Assembly (NCBI RefSeq): GCF_001044255.1
Contig: NZ_JYNX01000030.1
Coordinates: 1 to 52,317, forward strand
Reading direction: 5' to 3'
DNA from: Mycolicibacterium chubuense
GTDB taxonomy: Bacteria; Actinomycetota; Actinomycetes; Mycobacteriales; Mycobacteriaceae
DNA: 52,317 bases
Part shown: positions 24,081-31,569 of the stretch, piece by piece
How positions within the stretch are numbered: position 1 is the first letter of the stretch
Layout of the letters: the number at the start of each line of letters is the position of its first letter
Program-made: the position numbers and the translations under genes
Notes under the pieces: generated by a model
Seen by the model: only the letters and a program-made list of their open reading frames with translations
What the model was told of the DNA's origin: nothing
Databases searched by the model: none

Positions 24081-26666
24081 TCAGCGGGCGTCGAACTCCC
24101 GCGCCCGCAGCGAGCGCTCCACTCCGGCGCGGCCCTCGAGCACCAGCCGCCGCAGCGCCGGCGGCACCTCTGGGTCGGACAAGAACCGGTCGGCCGCCTC
24201 GAGCGCGTCGGCGCTGATGTCCCACGACGGGTACAGCCCGACCACCACGGTCTGGGCGACCTCGCTGGACCGTCGCTCCCACACCCCCGAGATCGCGCCG
24301 AAGAAGCGGTCCCGGAACGGAGCCAGCAGCTCACCCTGGCCGGGCTGCACGAAGCCGCCGATGATCGCCCGCGCGGTGATATTGGCCAGCGTGTCGTCCT
24401 CGACCACCTGCTGCCAGGCCGACTCCTTCACCGCTGCCTGCGGACGCGCCGCGGCCGCTGCCGTGGCATGCCGCCGCCCGGCCGCGGTCGGGTCGTTCTG
24501 AGCTTCCGCGTCGATCAGCGGCGTCTCGGGGCCGTCGGCGTCGAGCACACCCGCGCGCGCCAGCGCCGTCACCACCCGCCAGCGCAGGTCGGTGTCGACC
24601 ACCAGTCCCTCCAGGTTCACCGCGGCCGGCTCGTTGTCGAGGAGTGTCGACAGCACCGCGACGTGATTCGGGGAGAGCACCGAGGTGCACAGCGCGTTGA
24701 CGAACGCCAGCTGATGGTCCGACCCGGGTGCGGCCTCGCCGGCGAGGTCGAGCAGCTTGTCCCCGAAGGCGGGCCAACCGTTCTCGGCGGCCCACTGCGG
24801 ATCGGCGTACGACCCCAGCGCGGTCTGCGCCTGCAGCAGCAGGCGCTGCGCCACACCGACTTCCGACTCCGCGTGCAGGCCGCTCATCACCAGGGCGACG
24901 AAGTCACGGGCACGCAGTTCGGCGTCGCGGGTCATCTCCCAGGCTGCCGACCACGCGAGCGTGCGGGGGAGCGGTTCGGCGATGTCGGCGATCCGCGCGA
25001 GCACCGTCTGCAGTGAGTCGGGGTCCAGGCGCAGCGAGCAGTACGTGAAATCGTCGTCGTTGACCAGGATCAGCTTGCCGCGCGACACTCCGCGCAGCCC
25101 CGGCACCTCCGTCGTCGCGCCCTCGACGTCGAGCTCCTCGCGGTGCACCCGCACCAACTTGCCCGACGCGTCCTCGTCGTAGATGCCGACGGCCAGTCGG
25201 TGCACGCGGGTCTCGCCGGCCCCGGGCTTCGCGCCGCCCTGCTCGATCGCGAACCGGGTGAACGCGCCGTCACCGTCGACGTCGAAGTCGGGCCGAAGCG
25301 TGTTCAGCCCGGTGGTCTTGAGCCACTGCCGGCCCCAGCCCGACAGGTCGCGGCCCGACGACTTCTCCAGCGCGCCAAGCAGATCGCCGAAGGTCGCGTT
25401 GCCGAAGGCGTGGTCGCGGAAGTAGTCGCGCAGGCCGGCGAGGAACGCGTCGAGCCCGACGTAGGCCACCAGTTGCTTGAGCACGCTGGCACCCTTGGCG
25501 TAGGTGATGCCGTCGAAGTTCACCTCCACGGCGTGCAGGTCGGGGATGTCGGCGGCCACCGGGTGGGTCGACGGCAGTTGGTCCTGCCGGTAGGCCCACG
25601 ACTTCTCCACGTTGGCGAACGTCGTCCACGCCTGGGTGTACTCGGTGGCCTCGGCCTGACAGAGCACCGACGCAAAAGTCGCGAACGACTCGTTGAGCCA
25701 CAGGTCATCCCACCACTGCATGGTGACGAGGTCGCCGAACCACATGTGGGCCATCTCGTGCAGCACGGTCTCGGCGCGGCGCTCGTAGGAGTACCGGGTG
25801 ACCTTGGAGCGGAACACGTAGTCCTCGAGGAACGTCACCGCTCCCGCGTTCTCCATCGCGCCAGCGTTGAACTCCGGGACGAACAGCTGGTCGTACTTGC
25901 CGAACGCGTACGGCGTGCCGAAGTTGTTGTGGTAGAAGGAGAATCCCTGCTTGGTCTCGGTGAACAGCCGGTCGGCGTCCATGAATTCCTCGAGGGACTT
26001 GCGGCAGAAGATCCCCAGGGGGATGTCGCCGTGGTCGTCGGAGTACACGTCGTCCCAGCGGGCGTACGGCCCGGCGATCAGCGCGACCAGGTAGGTGCTC
26101 ATCCGCGGGGTGGCCTTGAAGATGTGCTGCTTGGCCTTGCCGTCCCACGTGACGTCCGCGGTGGCGCCGTTGGAGATCACCTCCCAGTGCCCGGGCGCGG
26201 TGACCGTGATGTCGAACGCCGCCTTCAGGTCGGGCTGGTCGAAGCAGGCGAACATCCGCTTGGCGTCAGCCGTCTCGAACTGCGAGTACAGGTACACCTC
26301 GTCATCGACCGGGTCGACGAAGCGGTGCAGTCCCTCACCGGTGTTGGAGTAGCGGCAGTCCGCGTCGACGACGACGACGTTGTGCGCGGCCAGTCCGGTC
26401 AACGGGATGCCGGTCGACTCGTCGTAGCCCGACACGTCGATGTCGGCGCCGTTGAGCGTCGCGCTGCGGATCGTGTCCGCGGCGAGGTCGAGGTAGGTGT
26501 CGGAGCCGGCGAGCGCGTCGAACTCGACGGTCGTCACCGACCGGAACGTCTTCTCGCTCGGCGCACCGGCGCCGTCGGTCAGATCGAGGGCGACGCGGTA
26601 GCTGTCGACGGTGATCAGGGCGGCGCGTTCGGCGGCTTGGTCGCGCGTCAGATTAGGAAGGGCCAC
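24081..26666 (-). CDS. pepN: Aminopeptidase N (M1 family)
   Basis: An 861-aa zinc metalloprotease that removes N-terminal residues from peptides in the cytosol, completing breakdown of products released by Clp and other proteases. It carries the M1 substrate motif GAMEN at about residue 270 and the zinc site HEMAH (303-307) with the third ligand Glu326 in WLNESFA. A C-terminal helical domain follows (about 540-861). No signal peptide is present. The start is set at GTG 26666, 8 nt after TAATGT; an ATG a few codons upstream would fall in the promoter. It is divergent from the nitroreductase gene, as Rv2467 is from Rv2466c. Confidence 0.95.
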   Translation of the reverse strand: MALPNLTRDQAAERAALITVDSYRVALDLTDGAGAPSEKTFRSVTTVEFDALAGSDTYLDLAADTIRSATLNGADIDVSGYDESTGIPLTGLAAHNVVVVDADCRYSNTGEGLHRFVDPVDDEVYLYSQFETADAKRMFACFDQPDLKAAFDITVTAPGHWEVISNGATADVTWDGKAKQHIFKATPRMSTYLVALIAGPYARWDDVYSDDHGDIPLGIFCRKSLEEFMDADRLFTETKQGFSFYHNNFGTPYAFGKYDQLFVPEFNAGAMENAGAVTFLEDYVFRSKVTRYSYERRAETVLHEMAHMWFGDLVTMQWWDDLWLNESFATFASVLCQAEATEYTQAWTTFANVEKSWAYRQDQLPSTHPVAADIPDLHAVEVNFDGITYAKGASVLKQLVAYVGLDAFLAGLRDYFRDHAFGNATFGDLLGALEKSSGRDLSGWGRQWLKTTGLNTLRPDFDVDGDGAFTRFAIEQGGAKPGAGETRVHRLAVGIYDEDASGKLVRVHREELDVEGATTEVPGLRGVSRGKLILVNDDDFTYCSLRLDPDSLQTVLARIADIAEPLPRTLAWSAAWEMTRDAELRARDFVALVMSGLHAESEVGVAQRLLLQAQTALGSYADPQWAAENGWPAFGDKLLDLAGEAAPGSDHQLAFVNALCTSVLSPNHVAVLSTLLDNEPAAVNLEGLVVDTDLRWRVVTALARAGVLDADGPETPLIDAEAQNDPTAAGRRHATAAAAARPQAAVKESAWQQVVEDDTLANITARAIIGGFVQPGQGELLAPFRDRFFGAISGVWERRSSEVAQTVVVGLYPSWDISADALEAADRFLSDPEVPPALRRLVLEGRAGVERSLRAREFDAR

Positions 26667-26674
26667 GCCCGTCA

Positions 26675-26680
26675 ACATTA
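26675..26680 (-). promoter_or_regulatory. -10 hexamer TAATGT for pepN (minus strand)
   Basis: TAATGT ends 8 nt before GTG 26666 on the minus strand and fixes the likely pepN start. Confidence 0.45.
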
Positions 26681-26690
26681 GTCTCAACCC

Positions 26691-26717
26691 GGGAAGACAG
26701 GACGGGCGTCGTGGGTT
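26691..26717 (+). promoter_or_regulatory. SigH-type promoter candidate for the nitroreductase
   Basis: GGGAAGA (26691-26697), a 16-nt spacer and GGTT (26714-26717) fit the mycobacterial SigH pattern GGAA-N16-19-GTT. Rv2466c is a known member of the thiol-oxidative-stress SigH regulon, which supports the reading. Confidence 0.55.
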
Positions 26718-26759
26718 GAGCCGTATTGACGTCTGTCACCGACTCGACAAGGAGATCCC

Positions 26760-27368
26760 ATGACCGAGAAGTCCCGCGCCGATTTCTGGTTCGACCCACT
26801 GTGCCCGTGGTGCTGGATCACCTCACGCTGGATCCTCGAAGTGGAGAAGGTCCGCGACATCGAGGTCAACTTCCACGTCATGAGCCTCGCGGTGCTCAAC
26901 GAGGGCAGGGACCTGCCCGAGGAGTACCTGGAGATGATGAAGAAGGCGTGGGGACCGGTGCGGGTCGCCATCGCCGCCGAGCAGAGCAAGGGCTCCGAGG
27001 TGCTGGCCCCGCTGTACACGGCTATGGGCACGCGCATCCACAACCAGGACAACAAGGACTTCACCCAGGTGATCGCGGAGTCGCTCGCCGAGGTCGGCCT
27101 GCCCGCCGAACTCGCCGACGCCGCCGAGTCGGACGCCTACGACGAGGCGCTGCGCAAGAGCCACCACGAGGGCATGGACGCCGTCGGCGACGACGTGGGC
27201 ACCCCGACCATCCACGTCAACGGTGTGGCGTTCTTCGGGCCCGTGCTGTCGAAGATCCCGCGGGGCGAGGAGGCCGGCAAGCTGTGGGACGCGTCGGTGA
27301 TCTTCGCGTCGTACCCGCACTTCTGGGAGTTGAAGCGCTCCCGCACCGAGCCGCCCACCTTCGACTGA
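26760..27368 (+). CDS. Mycothiol-dependent nitroreductase, DsbA-like thioredoxin fold (Rv2466c-like)
   Basis: A 202-aa protein with a thioredoxin fold and helical insertion. The active site is C15-P-W-C18 in [10 protein letters not shown], and a cis-Pro loop appears as [10 protein letters not shown]. Rv2466c uses mycothiol or mycoredoxin to reduce its dithiol and is the enzyme that activates the thienopyrimidine prodrug TP053; its natural role is in the oxidative-stress response. AAGGAG before ATG 26760 is a clear ribosome-binding site, so this transcript has a leader, unlike many neighbours. The sequence is intact and of normal length. Confidence 0.93.
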
Positions 27369-27373
27369 CACGC

Positions 27374-27429
27374 CGAGCGTGAAGCCATCGTCACGTTCGC
27401 GCCCGATGGTGAAGGTGGCTTCACACTCG
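27374..27429 (+). terminator. Hairpin after the nitroreductase gene
   Basis: CGAGCGTGAAGCCA (27374-27387) pairs with TGGCTTCACACTCG (27416-27429), 13 of 14 bases, across a 28-nt loop. It begins 5 nt past the stop and separates this gene from the permease operon. Confidence 0.6.
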
Positions 27430-27489
27430 TTTGTTTCGGGCAGGTTGCCTCCGGTTGCGCGTTGACCGCGGCGCCTCCACCGTAGATCG

Positions 27490-28881
27490 GTGACAGTCAC
27501 CGAACGCAGCACCGACGGCACCTACCGGGACCGCGTCGTCGCCGTCGAACCCGGCGGCAACGAGTACATCGCCGAAGCGGACCGCCACGGCAGGCCCAGC
27601 CAGCTGTTCTGGACGTGGACCTCGCCGAACCTCGAGTTCGCGACGATCTTCGTCGGCATGCTCGCGGTCCTCGCGTTCGGGATGACGTTCTGGCAGGCGG
27701 TCGCCGGCGTGGTGATCGGCACCGGGCTGGGCGCGATCGCGCACTACGTGCTGTCCGCCCGCGGGCCGTTGCACGGTGTGCCGCAGATGGTGTTGGCGCG
27801 CTTGGCTTTCGGGTTCAAGGGCAACGCCGTTCCGGCGGTGCTGATGTCGGTCACCGCCGGCGTCGGCTGGTTCGCCACCAACAGCGTCAGCGGAGCGTTC
27901 GCCCTGTCGACGTTGTTCGGTTTCGGGCCGCTGGCCGGCCTGGTGATCATCGTGGCCGCGCAGACGGTGCTGGCCTTCTTCGGGCACAACCTGGTTCAGG
28001 CGTTCGAGAAGTACTCCTTCCCGGTGCTGGCGGTGATCTTCATCGCGGCGTCGGTGGCGATCTTCGCCCATGCCGACCTCGGCAACGCCGCCCCCGCCGC
28101 CGGCGGCGTGGGCGGTCTCGGTGGGTTCCTGCTGACGGTCGGTACGTCGTTCGGCTACGCCGCGGGCTGGACGCCGTACGCCGCGGACTTCACCCGGTAT
28201 CTGCCGAAGACCGTGTCACCCGCGCGCACCGGATTCTTCGCCGCCGCAGGGCTGTTCACCGCGTGCGTGGTGCTCGAAGTGGTGGGCGCGGCGTCGGTGA
28301 CGACGGGCGAGGCCTCGCTCGCCGACCCGACGGGGTCGTTCACCGCCGAACTCGCCTCGCCGCTGGCCAAGGCGACCCTGCTCGCCATCGCAGTCGGCGC
28401 GATCGCGGCCAACGCCATCAACGTCTACTCCGGGGCGATGGCGTTCGTGACCATCGGCATCAAGCTGCCCGCGCACGTCGCCCGCGCGCTGGTGACGGTG
28501 TTCTTCGGCATCGCCGGCTTCCTCGTCGCATGGTGGGCGCTGCCCGACGCCGCCCATAGTTACGAAGCATTCCTGCTGATCATCGCCTACTGGGTGGGGC
28601 CGTGGCTCGGGGTGATGTTCGCCGATCAGTACCTGCGCCGCGGGCGACCCGTCGCGCATCTGCTCTACGACCGCTCGTACACCAACTGGGGCGGGCTGGC
28701 CGCGTTCGGGATCGGCCTGGTGGTGTCTGTGCTGCTGTTCGCCAATCAGGAGAAGTTCGTCGGCTTCGTCGCGGCCGCGGTGCCCGCGCTCGGCGACATC
28801 ACGTTCTTCGTCGGGTTCGTGCTGGCCGGGGCCGCATACTGGGTGCTGTGCCGCCCCGCGATCGTCACGCAGAGTCGATGA
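27490..28881 (+). CDS. NCS1-family nucleobase permease (cytosine/purine type)
   Basis: A 463-aa protein with about 12 membrane helices. It belongs to the nucleobase-cation symport-1 family of CodB, importing cytosine, purines, allantoin or similar bases with H+ or Na+. Visible features include the cytosolic N-terminus ending SQLFWTWTSPNLEFATIFVGML, the GPLHGVPQMVLARLAFGFKGN loop and GWTPYAADFTRYLP. GTG 27490 is 6 nt after CACCGT, a possible -10 hexamer. The stop overlaps a cytosine deaminase gene (ATGA), which points to cytosine or a methylated derivative as cargo. This three-gene operon is not present between Rv2466c and Rv2465c in M. tuberculosis as I recall it, so it looks like an insertion. 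Confidence 0.85.
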   Translation: MTVTERSTDGTYRDRVVAVEPGGNEYIAEADRHGRPSQLFWTWTSPNLEFATIFVGMLAVLAFGMTFWQAVAGVVIGTGLGAIAHYVLSARGPLHGVPQMVLARLAFGFKGNAVPAVLMSVTAGVGWFATNSVSGAFALSTLFGFGPLAGLVIIVAAQTVLAFFGHNLVQAFEKYSFPVLAVIFIAASVAIFAHADLGNAAPAAGGVGGLGGFLLTVGTSFGYAAGWTPYAADFTRYLPKTVSPARTGFFAAAGLFTACVVLEVVGAASVTTGEASLADPTGSFTAELASPLAKATLLAIAVGAIAANAINVYSGAMAFVTIGIKLPAHVARALVTVFFGIAGFLVAWWALPDAAHSYEAFLLIIAYWVGPWLGVMFADQYLRRGRPVAHLLYDRSYTNWGGLAAFGIGLVVSVLLFANQEKFVGFVAAAVPALGDITFFVGFVLAGAAYWVLCRPAIVTQSR

Positions 28882-29321
28882 CCTCACCGCAGTCCATGCT
28901 CGACGTCGCCGTCGACGAAGCCCGAAAAGGGTTGGCCGAAGGCGGTATTCCGATCGGAGCGGCGCTGTTCTCCGCCGACGGCACACTGTTGGGCAGCGGG
29001 CACAACCAACGGGTGCAGCGCGACGACCCGTCGATCCACGCCGAGACCGACGCGTTCCGCAACGCGGGCCGTCAGCGGGGCTACCGGTCGACGGTCATGG
29101 TGACCACGCTGTCGCCGTGCTGGTACTGCAGTGGCCTGGTGCGCCAGTTCAACATCGGGGCGGTGGTGATCGGGGAGAGCACGACGTTCACCGGCGGGCA
29201 CGAGTGGCTGGCCGAGCACGGCGTCGAGGTCACCGTCCTCGACGACGAGCGCTGCGTGGCGATGATGACCGACTTCATCGCCGCGCATCCGGACCTGTGG
29301 GCGGAGGACATCGGCGAATGA
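28878..29321 (+). CDS. Yeast-type cytosine deaminase
   Basis: The 147-aa zinc enzyme is of the small cytidine-deaminase-like fold, not the large amidohydrolase CodA. Zinc ligands and the proton shuttle are H54-A-E56 and P80-C81..C84 (SPCWYC). It closely resembles yeast Fcy1: TTLSPCxxC, the VGES..F loop, VxVLDDERC and the terminal WAEDIGE. Fcy1 converts cytosine to uracil and also accepts 5-methylcytosine and 5-fluorocytosine; this is known for the yeast enzyme and inferred here. ATG 28878 overlaps the permease stop and its own stop overlaps the oxygenase start, so all three genes are coupled. Guanine deaminase is a less likely alternative. Confidence 0.85.
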   Translation: MTSPQSMLDVAVDEARKGLAEGGIPIGAALFSADGTLLGSGHNQRVQRDDPSIHAETDAFRNAGRQRGYRSTVMVTTLSPCWYCSGLVRQFNIGAVVIGESTTFTGGHEWLAEHGVEVTVLDDERCVAMMTDFIAAHPDLWAEDIGE

Positions 29322-30277
29322 GTGTGATTGCCAGCATCGATCTTTCGCGGTGGCGCCAGGGCGGGGCGGCCGCCGACGCCGTCGCGGCCAATGTGGACGC
29401 CGGGCTGCAGCGCGCCGGTTTCATCCTGGTGACCGGGCACGGCGTGGACCCCGCGCTCGCGCGCGATGTGCGGGCCGCCGCCCGGGAGTTCTTCGCGCTG
29501 CCCGGGTCGGTCAAGGACCGCTACGCGGTGCCGGTCGGCGGTCACGGGTGGATCGGGCCCGGTGCCGAGGCCAACGGGTACGCCGAGGGGACCGAGACCC
29601 CGCCGGATCTGAAGGAGAGCTTCAGCCTGGGCGCCGAAACCGCCACGGGTGACCCCGATGTCGACCGGATCTGGTTCGCGCCGAACGTGTGGCCGGCGGA
29701 GGTGCCCGCGCTGCAGCGGCTGGTCGACCGGTACACCGCGCAGATGCGACGCGTTGCCGACGAGCTGCTGGCTCTGTTCGCCCACGCGCTGCACCTGCCG
29801 GCGAATCCGTTCGCGGCGCTGGCGAGCCGCCCGACGTGGACGATGAACATCAACCACTATCCGCCCGTCAGCGTCGTCGGCGTCCCCGAGCCCGGGCAGT
29901 TCCGGATCGGTCCGCACACCGACTTCGGCACGGTGACGATCCTGGACCGCGAACCCGGCGCCGGCGGCCTGCAGGTGTACTCCGACGCCGCGGGCTGGGA
30001 GGACGCCCCGTACGACCCGGAGGCGCTGACGGTCAACATCGGCGACCTGCTGGAGTACTGGAGCGGACGGCGCTGGCCGTCGGGCCGGCATCGGGTGCTC
30101 CCGCCGCAGCCGCACGCCCCCGAAGAGGACCTCGTCTCGCTCATCTACTTCTACGAGGCCAACCACGACGCCGTGGTGACGCCGCTGCAGCCGCCGGTGG
30201 GGAAGGTGGCCGGGCTGGCGCCGGTCACGTCGTCGGAGTTCATCAAGGAACGGCTGGACGCGATCACCGTGGCCTGA
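29318..30277 (+). CDS. Isopenicillin-N-synthase-like 2OG/Fe(II)-type oxygenase
   Basis: A 319-aa double-stranded beta-helix oxygenase. The N-terminal DIOX_N-type domain contains GFILVTGHGVD. The core has the iron triad H200-x-D202 (GPHTDFGT) and H258 (SGRHRV). The arginine of the usual RxS motif, which anchors 2-oxoglutarate, is not evident: the aligned segment reads L272-V-S, in EEDLVSLIYFYEANHD. The cosubstrate is therefore uncertain. Fungal thymine 7-hydroxylase belongs to this superfamily, and the coupling to a base permease and cytosine deaminase suggests a pyrimidine substrate such as thymine made from 5-methylcytosine. That is a hypothesis. ATG 29318 overlaps the deaminase stop after GGAGGA. 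Confidence 0.82.
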   Translation: MSVIASIDLSRWRQGGAAADAVAANVDAGLQRAGFILVTGHGVDPALARDVRAAAREFFALPGSVKDRYAVPVGGHGWIGPGAEANGYAEGTETPPDLKESFSLGAETATGDPDVDRIWFAPNVWPAEVPALQRLVDRYTAQMRRVADELLALFAHALHLPANPFAALASRPTWTMNINHYPPVSVVGVPEPGQFRIGPHTDFGTVTILDREPGAGGLQVYSDAAGWEDAPYDPEALTVNIGDLLEYWSGRRWPSGRHRVLPPQPHAPEEDLVSLIYFYEANHDAVVTPLQPPVGKVAGLAPVTSSEFIKERLDAITVA

Positions 30278-30279
30278 GC

Positions 30280-30285
30280 TACCGT
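30280..30285 (+). promoter_or_regulatory. -10 hexamer TACCGT for rpiB
   Basis: TACCGT ends 7 nt before ATG 30293, so rpiB has its own leaderless promoter and need not depend on the upstream accessory operon. Confidence 0.55.
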
Positions 30286-30292
30286 ATCGGCC

Positions 30293-30766
30293 ATGCGCGT
30301 CTACCTCGGGGCCGACCACGCCGGATACGAGCTCAAGCAGGCCGTCATCGAGCATCTGACGGCGGCCGGGCACGAGCCCGTCGACTGCGGGGCGTTCGGC
30401 TATGACGCCGAGGACGACTACCCGGCGTTCTGCATAGCGGCGGCCGAGCGCACCGTCGCCGACCCGGGCAGCCTGGGCATCGTGCTGGGCGGATCCGGCA
30501 ACGGCGAGCAGATCGCCGCCAACAAGGTGCCCGGGGCCCGGTGCGCACTCGCGTGGAGCACCGAGACCGCCGCGCTGGCCCGCGAACACAACGACGCCCA
30601 GCTGATCGGCATCGGCGGACGGATGCACACCACCGAAGAGGCGCTCGCGATCGTCGACGCGTTCCTGTCCACGGCGTGGTCGCAGGCCCCACGCCACCAA
30701 CGGCGCATCGACATCCTGTCCGAGTTCGAGAAGACGCACATCGCCCCAGCGGTGCCCGGCGCCTAG
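30293..30766 (+). CDS. rpiB: Ribose-5-phosphate isomerase B
   Basis: A 157-aa RpiB/LacAB-family enzyme that interconverts ribose-5-phosphate and ribulose-5-phosphate in the non-oxidative pentose phosphate pathway. Active-site residues D8-H9 (GADHAGYELK) and E72 in GGSGNGEQIAANK are in place; the mycobacterial form uses Glu as catalytic base rather than the Cys of E. coli RpiB. R-rich C-terminus (RHQRRIDILSEFE) is typical of mycobacterial RpiB. The nei2 start is 2 nt past its stop, so the two form an operon, as Rv2465c-Rv2464c do. Confidence 0.95.
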   Translation: MRVYLGADHAGYELKQAVIEHLTAAGHEPVDCGAFGYDAEDDYPAFCIAAAERTVADPGSLGIVLGGSGNGEQIAANKVPGARCALAWSTETAALAREHNDAQLIGIGGRMHTTEEALAIVDAFLSTAWSQAPRHQRRIDILSEFEKTHIAPAVPGA

Positions 30767-30768
30767 GG

Positions 30769-31569
30769 ATGCCCGAAGGTCACACGATCCATCGACTGGC
30801 GCGGCAACATCAGCGGATGTTCCGCGGCCAGCGGGTGGCCGTGAGTAGTCCGCAAGGCCGGTTCGTCGACGGTGCCGACGCCGTCAACGGGCGCGGCTTC
30901 GAGAAGGCCAGCGCCTACGGAAAGCACCTGTTCCATCACTATGGCGGTGGCCGCATCGTCCATGTGCATCTCGGCCTCTACGGCAAGTTCACCGACTTCA
31001 CCGTCGACGCGGGCGTCCCCGAACCGGTCGGGCAGGTTCGCATGCGCATCATCGGCACCGAACGCGGCACCGATCTGCGCGGCCCGACCGCGTGCGAGAT
31101 CGTCACTGAGGCGGAGGTGTCGGAGATCTTGGCCCGGCTGGGCCCCGATCCGTTGCGCAAGGACGCCGACCCGGATGCGGCGTGGACCCGGATCACCAAG
31201 TCGCGCCGCGTGATCGGCGCGCTGCTGATGGACCAGAGCGTGATCGCCGGGGTCGGCAACGTGTACCGCAACGAGCTGCTCTACCGGCACCGCATCGACC
31301 CGCACCGGCCCGGAACGCAGATGGCCCACGGCGAGTTCGGTGACGCGTGGACCGACCTGGTCGAGCTGATGAACGTCGGGGTGCGCAAGGGCCGCATCAT
31401 CACCATCCGGCCCGAGGACGACCACGGCATGCCGTCCTACGGACGGCGGCGCCCGCGCACCTACGTCTACCGTCGCGCCGGCGATCCGTGCCGGATCTGC
31501 GACACCCCCATCCGGACCGAGGTGCTCGAGGGACGCAATCTGTTCTGGTGTCCCACCTGCCAGAGCTGA
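30769..31569 (+). CDS. nei2: Endonuclease VIII-type DNA glycosylase Nei2 (Fpg/Nei family)
   Basis: A 266-aa base-excision repair enzyme. It starts MPEGHTIHRLA, with P2 the Schiff-base nucleophile and E3 the general acid. The helix-two-turn-helix region has GVGNVYRNELLYRHRIDP, and the C-terminal zinc finger is CRICDTPI...CPTC. Fpg/Nei enzymes remove oxidised bases (Nei mainly pyrimidines) and nick the abasic site. The ATG 2 nt after rpiB is chosen because the family needs Pro at position 2; longer upstream readings are spurious. It corresponds to Rv2464c. Confidence 0.93.
   Translation: MPEGHTIHRLARQHQRMFRGQRVAVSSPQGRFVDGADAVNGRGFEKASAYGKHLFHHYGGGRIVHVHLGLYGKFTDFTVDAGVPEPVGQVRMRIIGTERGTDLRGPTACEIVTEAEVSEILARLGPDPLRKDADPDAAWTRITKSRRVIGALLMDQSVIAGVGNVYRNELLYRHRIDPHRPGTQMAHGEFGDAWTDLVELMNVGVRKGRIITIRPEDDHGMPSYGRRRPRTYVYRRAGDPCRICDTPIRTEVLEGRNLFWCPTCQS

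Follow-up and report, generated by a model that had tools for sequence, protein, structure and literature searches.

A conserved permease, cytosine deaminase and oxygenase operon in Mycolicibacterium chubuense, with a probable role in the uptake and conversion of a pyrimidine base

Why would a bacterium couple a nucleobase permease and a cytosine deaminase to an iron-dependent oxygenase? We studied this question at one locus of Mycolicibacterium chubuense, within a stretch of 52,317 nucleotides (NCBI RefSeq assembly GCF_001044255.1, contig NZ_JYNX01000030.1, positions 1 to 52,317 of the forward strand) that is referred to here in full as the window. Three plus-strand genes lie in the order permease, deaminase and oxygenase, coupled by two four-base ATGA overlaps (Table 1). 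We conclude that they probably form an operon for the uptake and conversion of a pyrimidine base, in which the oxygenase acts on a base of the same route. An initial annotation of this locus had described the ATGA overlaps, a permease of the NCS1 type, an Fcy1-type cytosine deaminase with an intact zinc site and the coupling of the three genes, all of which were borne out by the comparisons below.

We identified at least 536 relatives in a scan of named genomes and kept the best 80 loci, only two of which bear a name other than Mycobacterium or Mycolicibacterium. The deaminase gene lies directly upstream of the oxygenase gene and on the same strand in all 80, with a 4-base overlap in 63, and 75 of the loci contain the permease, whose gene overlaps by 4 bases in 71; this recurrence goes beyond chance. 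The nearest named locus among the matches listed is that of Mycolicibacterium chlorophenolicum DSM 43826, whose three proteins are 99-100% identical to those of the window. At the level of the family, an orthologous oxygenase was found in 23 of 151 genomes (E <= 1e-97, 53-100% identical; one split in two pieces), clearly separate from oxygenase paralogs at 31-38% identity, and the deaminase adjoins it in 20 of the 23 orthologous loci. We additionally considered five genomes of other families in the order. All three genes occur in four of these (f76, f79 and f86 twice), in three cases arranged as deaminase, oxygenase and permease, and the fifth (f78) holds the permease and oxygenase; the cluster is conserved outside the strain, and that it persists when its genes are reordered is a good sign that they share a function. 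Gene order was compared at 104 loci, of which 90 read permease-deaminase-oxygenase, 7 deaminase-oxygenase, and the remainder otherwise.

Sequence relationships make it very probable that the second gene encodes a cytosine deaminase. A search of the PDB gave 40 matches, of which the top 13 (E 1.6e-34 to 4.3e-33) all carry the name cytosine deaminase, and the alignments run from residue 5 to the C-terminal W-x-E-D-I-G-E. The zinc ligands H54, E56, C81 and C84, in an HxE...PCxxC arrangement, are present in each of 120 relatives drawn from 130 loci. The ligand contacts of yeast cytosine deaminase named in an excerpt of PMC11000218 (Asn51, Glu64, Phe114, Trp152 and Asp155) map to N43, E56, F104, W141 and D144, of which F104 is conserved in 119 of the 120 relatives and the other four in every one. 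Relatives of the deaminase (E <= 1e-25) were found in 36 of 396 genomes of the phylum. Among 21 deaminase loci without the oxygenase, a CodB-type permease lies nearby in 7, another NCS1 permease in 3 and none in 11; two of the seven CodB-linked deaminase relatives were scored, and overlap CodB equivalogs (390.6 and 394.6 bits against a cut-off of 326). Similarly, a plasmid of the alphaproteobacterium Palleronia carries a deaminase relative followed by an annotated codB. Because the contacts are kept and CodB is a recurrent neighbour, cytosine or a close 4-aminopyrimidine is the likely substrate; the same features do not point to guanine.

On plasmid pADP-1 of Pseudomonas sp. ADP (L272 4977-6095), a 42% identical relative of the deaminase stands just before a ring-opening amidohydrolase, and is perhaps the deaminase of another ring compound. 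At a further locus (L171), the amidohydrolase adjoining the deaminase matches one uncharacterised PDB protein only, and we dropped iso-orotate decarboxylase as a candidate.

The permease belongs to the NCS1 type, scoring 129.7 bits against Pfam Transp_cyt_pur (PF02133; gathering score 23.5), but falls below the cut-off of the NCBIfam model TIGR00800 (123.2 against 353.1) and far below that of the CodB equivalog NF008241 (28.8 bits against 326). Of two residues in transmembrane helix 3 of CodB, Gln105 and Trp108, the tryptophan has a counterpart in Trp127, found in 93 of 93 relatives, and the glutamine position is occupied by Ala or Cys. The two permease types also divide by locus: 103 loci with deaminase and oxygenase contain the window-type permease in 93 cases, CodB in none and no recognised permease nearby in 10, and the 21 deaminase loci without oxygenase contain CodB in 7 and the window-type permease in none, although most of these loci are close relatives and the counts are therefore not independent.

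We found that the oxygenase belongs to a clade that, by sequence, is distinct and lacks an arginine otherwise associated with 2-oxoglutarate. Its iron triad (HxD...H) is kept in the 105 clade relatives counted, with H200 in 105, D202 in 105 and H258 in 104; the sole departure is an ortholog (G076; L022/L048) in which Gln replaces His258, and which may be inactive. In fungal thymine-7-hydroxylase (T7H), Arg286 and Ser288 make up the RxS motif of the superfamily, which holds the C5 carboxylate of 2-oxoglutarate, according to an excerpt of PMC4787775. All 105 clade relatives instead contain LxS, and all 105 contain Arg211. We compared these positions in 30 PF03171 proteins, fetched from 40 matches in 41 genomes of the order. 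Seven, including that of the window, belong to the clade and combine Leu272 with Arg211; the 23 outside the clade have Arg at 272 in every case and at 211 in none, where most have a gap and the alignment of the loop is uncertain. In a tree of 42 rows, built with the motif columns included, the 14 LxS rows fall on one side of a single branch (100/99). Since Leu223 of T7H, which touches 2-oxoglutarate, corresponds to Leu209, two residues before Arg211, the latter could face the 2-oxoglutarate pocket, and we tentatively suggest that it might hold the cosubstrate in place of the lost arginine.

The initial annotation had drawn a parallel with fungal T7H, and had proposed oxidation of a methyl group. 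Among PDB matches, T7H (5c3p) ranks fourth for the window oxygenase, and second, at 147.4 bits, for the clade profile. We mapped its residues by hand on the PDB alignment (chain number = paper number + 2). In this mapping, Tyr194 and Ser288 of the 2-oxoglutarate site are kept as Y181 and S274, but Arg286 and Arg190 are lost, as L272 and N177. Four of the six thymine contacts have likewise changed (Asn87 to G75, Glu122 to S103, Arg190 to N177 and Asn294 to E280), leaving two aromatic contacts, Phe292, kept as F278, and Tyr217, still aromatic as F203. With both 2-oxoglutarate arginines and four of six contacts altered, the window oxygenase is not a T7H by its residues, and recognition of the T7H kind, as first put, is not supported. 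It may nonetheless oxidise a pyrimidine.

Other members of the clade also lie beside transporters. One adjoins an NCS2 permease that passes a xanthine-permease model, in the company of another oxygenase and a VOC protein, which speaks for base chemistry; another (L051) adjoins a different NCS1 permease, and a further one an MFS transporter. The sole other PF03171 protein found in the genome of the window closes an allantoin-type operon (L212 3993-11699; C32:23993-31699) containing isochorismatase-like, amidohydrolase, hydantoin racemase and allantoicase genes. Elsewhere, two tandem oxygenases of the same superfamily were found in a cluster of genome G131 (L213 11024-13223), with similar clusters at L214, L215 and L216. 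These encode an NCS2 uracil-type permease, dihydropyrimidinase, a carbamoylase-type amidase, an aminotransferase and a VOC protein, to which an F420-type oxidoreductase is added in L213 and L216. Among PDB entries, the first L213 oxygenase matches a fungal thymine dioxygenase best (166.9 bits); it retains RxS, and would be a better candidate for a bacterial thymine hydroxylase than the window oxygenase.

We compared known routes of uracil breakdown between 19 oxygenase-positive genomes (of 23 with an ortholog) and 19 negative genomes (of 128 without), both sets picked by hand, six of the negative genomes holding only paralogs at 31-37% identity. Barbiturase (PF09663) occurs in 3 of 19 positive and 4 of 19 negative genomes, and the oxygenase is thus not linked to barbiturate breakdown. 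RutA (TIGR03612) occurs in 2 of 19 and 0 of 19, respectively. Dihydropyrimidinase (TIGR02033) above cut-off was found in 10 of 19 positive and 2 of 19 negative genomes (Fisher p 0.013), an excess that may reflect shared ancestry, as six of the ten positives belong to one genus. In the genome of the window itself, barbiturase and RutA had no matches at the limits used, and dihydropyrimidinase matched only under the cut-off, at best 188 of 393 bits. The product of the oxygenase would be salvaged, or would follow a new route.

Like the codBA operon, the window operon joins a permease and a deaminase in one overlapping operon, for the same kind of route. Unlike codBA, its permease is of another NCS1 type (22% identical to CodB equivalogs), its deaminase is of the small Fcy1 type rather than CodA, which is an amidohydrolase, and an oxygenase has been added. 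The operon is a variant of the cytosine permease/deaminase operon, and a real, conserved pyrimidine-base module. Its deaminase matches yeast Fcy1 (1uaq and others) over nearly its full length (E about 1e-34) and keeps the zinc ligands and base contacts, but has W82-Y83 inside the zinc motif (111 of 120 relatives) where yeast has Asp-Met. The oxygenase shares with 5c3p its superfamily, iron ligands, the Tyr and Ser of the 2-oxoglutarate site and the aromatic base stack, and differs from it in the Leu at the RxS arginine, the Asn at the second 2-oxoglutarate arginine and the changed base contacts. Its closest solved sequence is 9ovh, described by its depositors as a 2-oxoglutarate-dependent ethylene/succinate-forming enzyme (135.9 bits alone, 175.7 with the clade profile), in which R-L-S aligns with the L-V-S of the window oxygenase.

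In the route that we propose, the NCS1 permease would import a 4-amino-pyrimidine base, and the zinc deaminase would convert it to the 4-oxo base (cytosine to uracil, or 5-methylcytosine to thymine) with release of ammonia. The oxygenase, its iron held by His200, Asp202 and His258, would oxidise one of the bases on this route, most probably the product of the deaminase. The case is strong for a cytosine-type substrate of the deaminase and for a single route shared by the three proteins, and moderate for a pyrimidine base as the substrate of the oxygenase. Several observations weigh against this proposal, beyond the changed thymine contacts. The 80 named loci, being nearly all from Mycobacterium or Mycolicibacterium, are not independent. 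Four genomes (G110, G028, G492 and G259) carry the oxygenase with no deaminase match at E <= 1e-15, so that the oxygenase need not act after deamination, and an oxygenase match (E <= 1e-42) is present in only 6 of the 36 deaminase-positive genomes of the phylum. One genome (G006) breaks the division of permeases, pairing the window-type permease with a deaminase where the fetched stretch contains no oxygenase, and carrying an oxygenase elsewhere with another NCS1 permease. Finally, no further enzyme, such as a decarboxylase, was seen conserved in the cluster among the neighbours scanned, which were only some of those present.

A 5-substituted base such as 5-methylcytosine, as a special substrate, would explain the pairing of permease and oxygenase, and is the leading, albeit weak, candidate. 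An excerpt of PMC9379551 reports that CodB does not bind methylcytosine, presumably through a clash with Phe33; a permease that is not CodB leaves room for this base. In one alignment Phe33 corresponds to Thr44 of the window permease, a position held by T, A, M or S in 92 of 93 relatives and by a gap in the last, but a larger alignment, which tells against the idea, placed that helix differently with respect to CodB, so that we take the placing of Thr44 opposite Phe33 as a hint only. According to the initial annotation, yeast Fcy1 accepts 5-methylcytosine, and a chain from 5-methylcytosine to oxidised thymine is possible. In its full form, as an actinobacterial salvage or nitrogen route for bases of the 5-methylcytosine type, with a permease admitting the 5-substituent, an Fcy1-type deaminase and an oxygenase that oxidises the substituent and relies on a relocated Arg211, the scheme would be rather unlikely.

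The operon might alternatively scavenge nitrogen from plain cytosine, the oxygenase hydroxylating the uracil ring (for example towards barbiturate or 5-hydroxyuracil) and leaving methyl groups untouched. Deaminase relatives that sit with CodB, a cytosine carrier, are consistent with this, as are the pADP-1 relative that precedes a ring-opening enzyme and the genome of the window, where another way of breaking uracil would be useful as RutA, barbiturase and dihydropyrimidinase are all missing above cut-off. However, the even distribution of barbiturase gives no link to barbiturate, and the absence of CodB from all 103 loci with deaminase and oxygenase suggests a substrate other than plain cytosine; we regard this explanation as doubtful. 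The order might also be reversed: the oxygenase would first strip off a group, for example the methyl of N4-methylcytosine, leaving cytosine for the deaminase to convert. This reading draws on an excerpt of PMC11898903, which reports that Escherichia coli CodA does not convert N4-methylcytosine directly and proposes an unknown demethylase ahead of it. The four genomes with oxygenase and no deaminase, and two loci (L051 and L262) with oxygenase and permease but no adjacent deaminase, would suit such an order. This order is nevertheless improbable, given that no sequence features point to N-demethylation and that the oxygenase follows the deaminase in 99 of 104 loci, although gene order proves little.

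The proposal that the substrate of the oxygenase is not a base at all, and that the operon is shared for another reason such as common regulation, draws on the great breadth of the superfamily, the loss of most T7H base contacts and two loci (L040 and L043) where the oxygenase stands alone. The linkage to deaminase and permease survives shuffled order and different families, and clade members also adjoin NCS2 or other NCS1 base permeases, which makes this proposal distinctly unlikely. Least probable of all is a true bacterial thymine-7-hydroxylase: the rank of T7H as second best solved relative of the clade profile and the kept stacking aromatic positions argue for it, but the altered arginines and thymine contacts argue against it, and T7H has a closer match (166.9 bits) in a different oxygenase family of related genomes. 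We favour uptake and conversion of a pyrimidine base by all three proteins.

The initial annotation had also described the operon as acquired, since it sits between two genes, a nitroreductase gene and rpiB, that are presumably adjacent in M. tuberculosis. Seven genomes of the genus that lack the operon were examined, and in all seven the two flanks adjoin each other; the site thus exists both empty and filled. Among the 80 nearest named loci, 58 show both flanking genes inside the fetched stretch. The operon occupies this site in many species and is thus an old presence/absence module. The argument for acquisition is weaker than first put, and both gain and loss fit the data. A locus outside the mycobacteria, in Kribbella antibiotica JCM 13523 (L131), encodes an oxygenase 82% and a deaminase 79% identical to those of the window, has no such flanking genes, and is a possible case of transfer. 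In five of the 80 loci, all mycobacterial (L055, L058, L064, L070 and L082), deaminase and oxygenase lie between the same flanks and a permease match is absent.

A PucR-type regulator adjoins the cluster in all three loci scanned for it (L047, L265 and L266); in L265 and L266, the additional co-directional genes encode PAS/STAS and anti-sigma proteins. In one genus (L047 11076-16253; L042, L044, L046, L048 and L049), the permease gene is followed by agmatine-deiminase-like, aldehyde dehydrogenase and primary-amine oxidase genes, which we dropped as part of the pathway because they look like a neighbouring polyamine operon. In G023 (L024/L050), the oxygenase match is split in two pieces in different frames. 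In the one open-access library searched, we found no papers that join isopenicillin N synthase, cytosine deaminase and permease.

Table 1. Positions of the operon, its motifs and its flanking genes in the window.
Feature	Position	Strand	Basis
NCS1-type nucleobase permease	27490..28881	+	463 aa, GTG start; PF02133, 129.7 bits
Fcy1-type cytosine deaminase (very probable)	28878..29321	+	147 aa; PF00383
Fe(II) oxygenase, isopenicillin-N-synthase-like superfamily, LxS clade	29318..30277	+	319 aa; DIOX_N, 2OG-FeII_Oxy
ATGA overlap, permease stop/deaminase start	28878..28881	+	sequence
ATGA overlap, deaminase stop/oxygenase start	29318..29321	+	sequence
Deaminase zinc motif H54-A-E56	29037..29045	+	sequence; H and E in 120/120 relatives
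Deaminase zinc motif C81-x-x-C84	29118..29129	+	sequence; 120/120 relatives
Oxygenase iron motif H200-T-D202	29915..29923	+	105/105 relatives
Oxygenase Arg211, clade-invariant, possible relocated cosubstrate Arg	29948..29950	+	105/105; 0/23 other PF03171
Oxygenase iron ligand His258	30089..30091	+	104/105 relatives
Oxygenase L272-V-S274, replaces RxS motif	30131..30139	+	Leu and Ser in 105/105
Flank outside the module, Rv2466c-like nitroreductase	26760..27368	+	PF22234
Flank outside the module, rpiB	30293..30766	+	PF02502

An Rfam search of positions 26600-31000 gave no matches, and we identified no sigma-70-like promoter in 27300-30400, where terminator-like sites number 2 against 1.2 expected. 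Between the nitroreductase gene and the permease lies a strong, imperfect palindrome of 56 bases (27374-27429), which folds better than shuffled sequences (z -3.3 as DNA; z -2.8 for a longer stretch as RNA). Three other places in the genome have similar sequence, and at one of these it was found on both strands.

Turnover of DNA and RNA releases free modified bases that have to be degraded, and little is known about the oxidation of free pyrimidines by bacterial enzymes. The operon, a conserved unit of three genes whose deaminase can be assayed, opens the substrate of the whole oxygenase clade to testing, and the uniform loss of the cosubstrate arginine in this clade raises the question of how, or whether, 2-oxoglutarate is used. 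If 5-methylcytosine proves to be the substrate, the operon would give bacteria an equivalent of the thymine oxidation of fungi.

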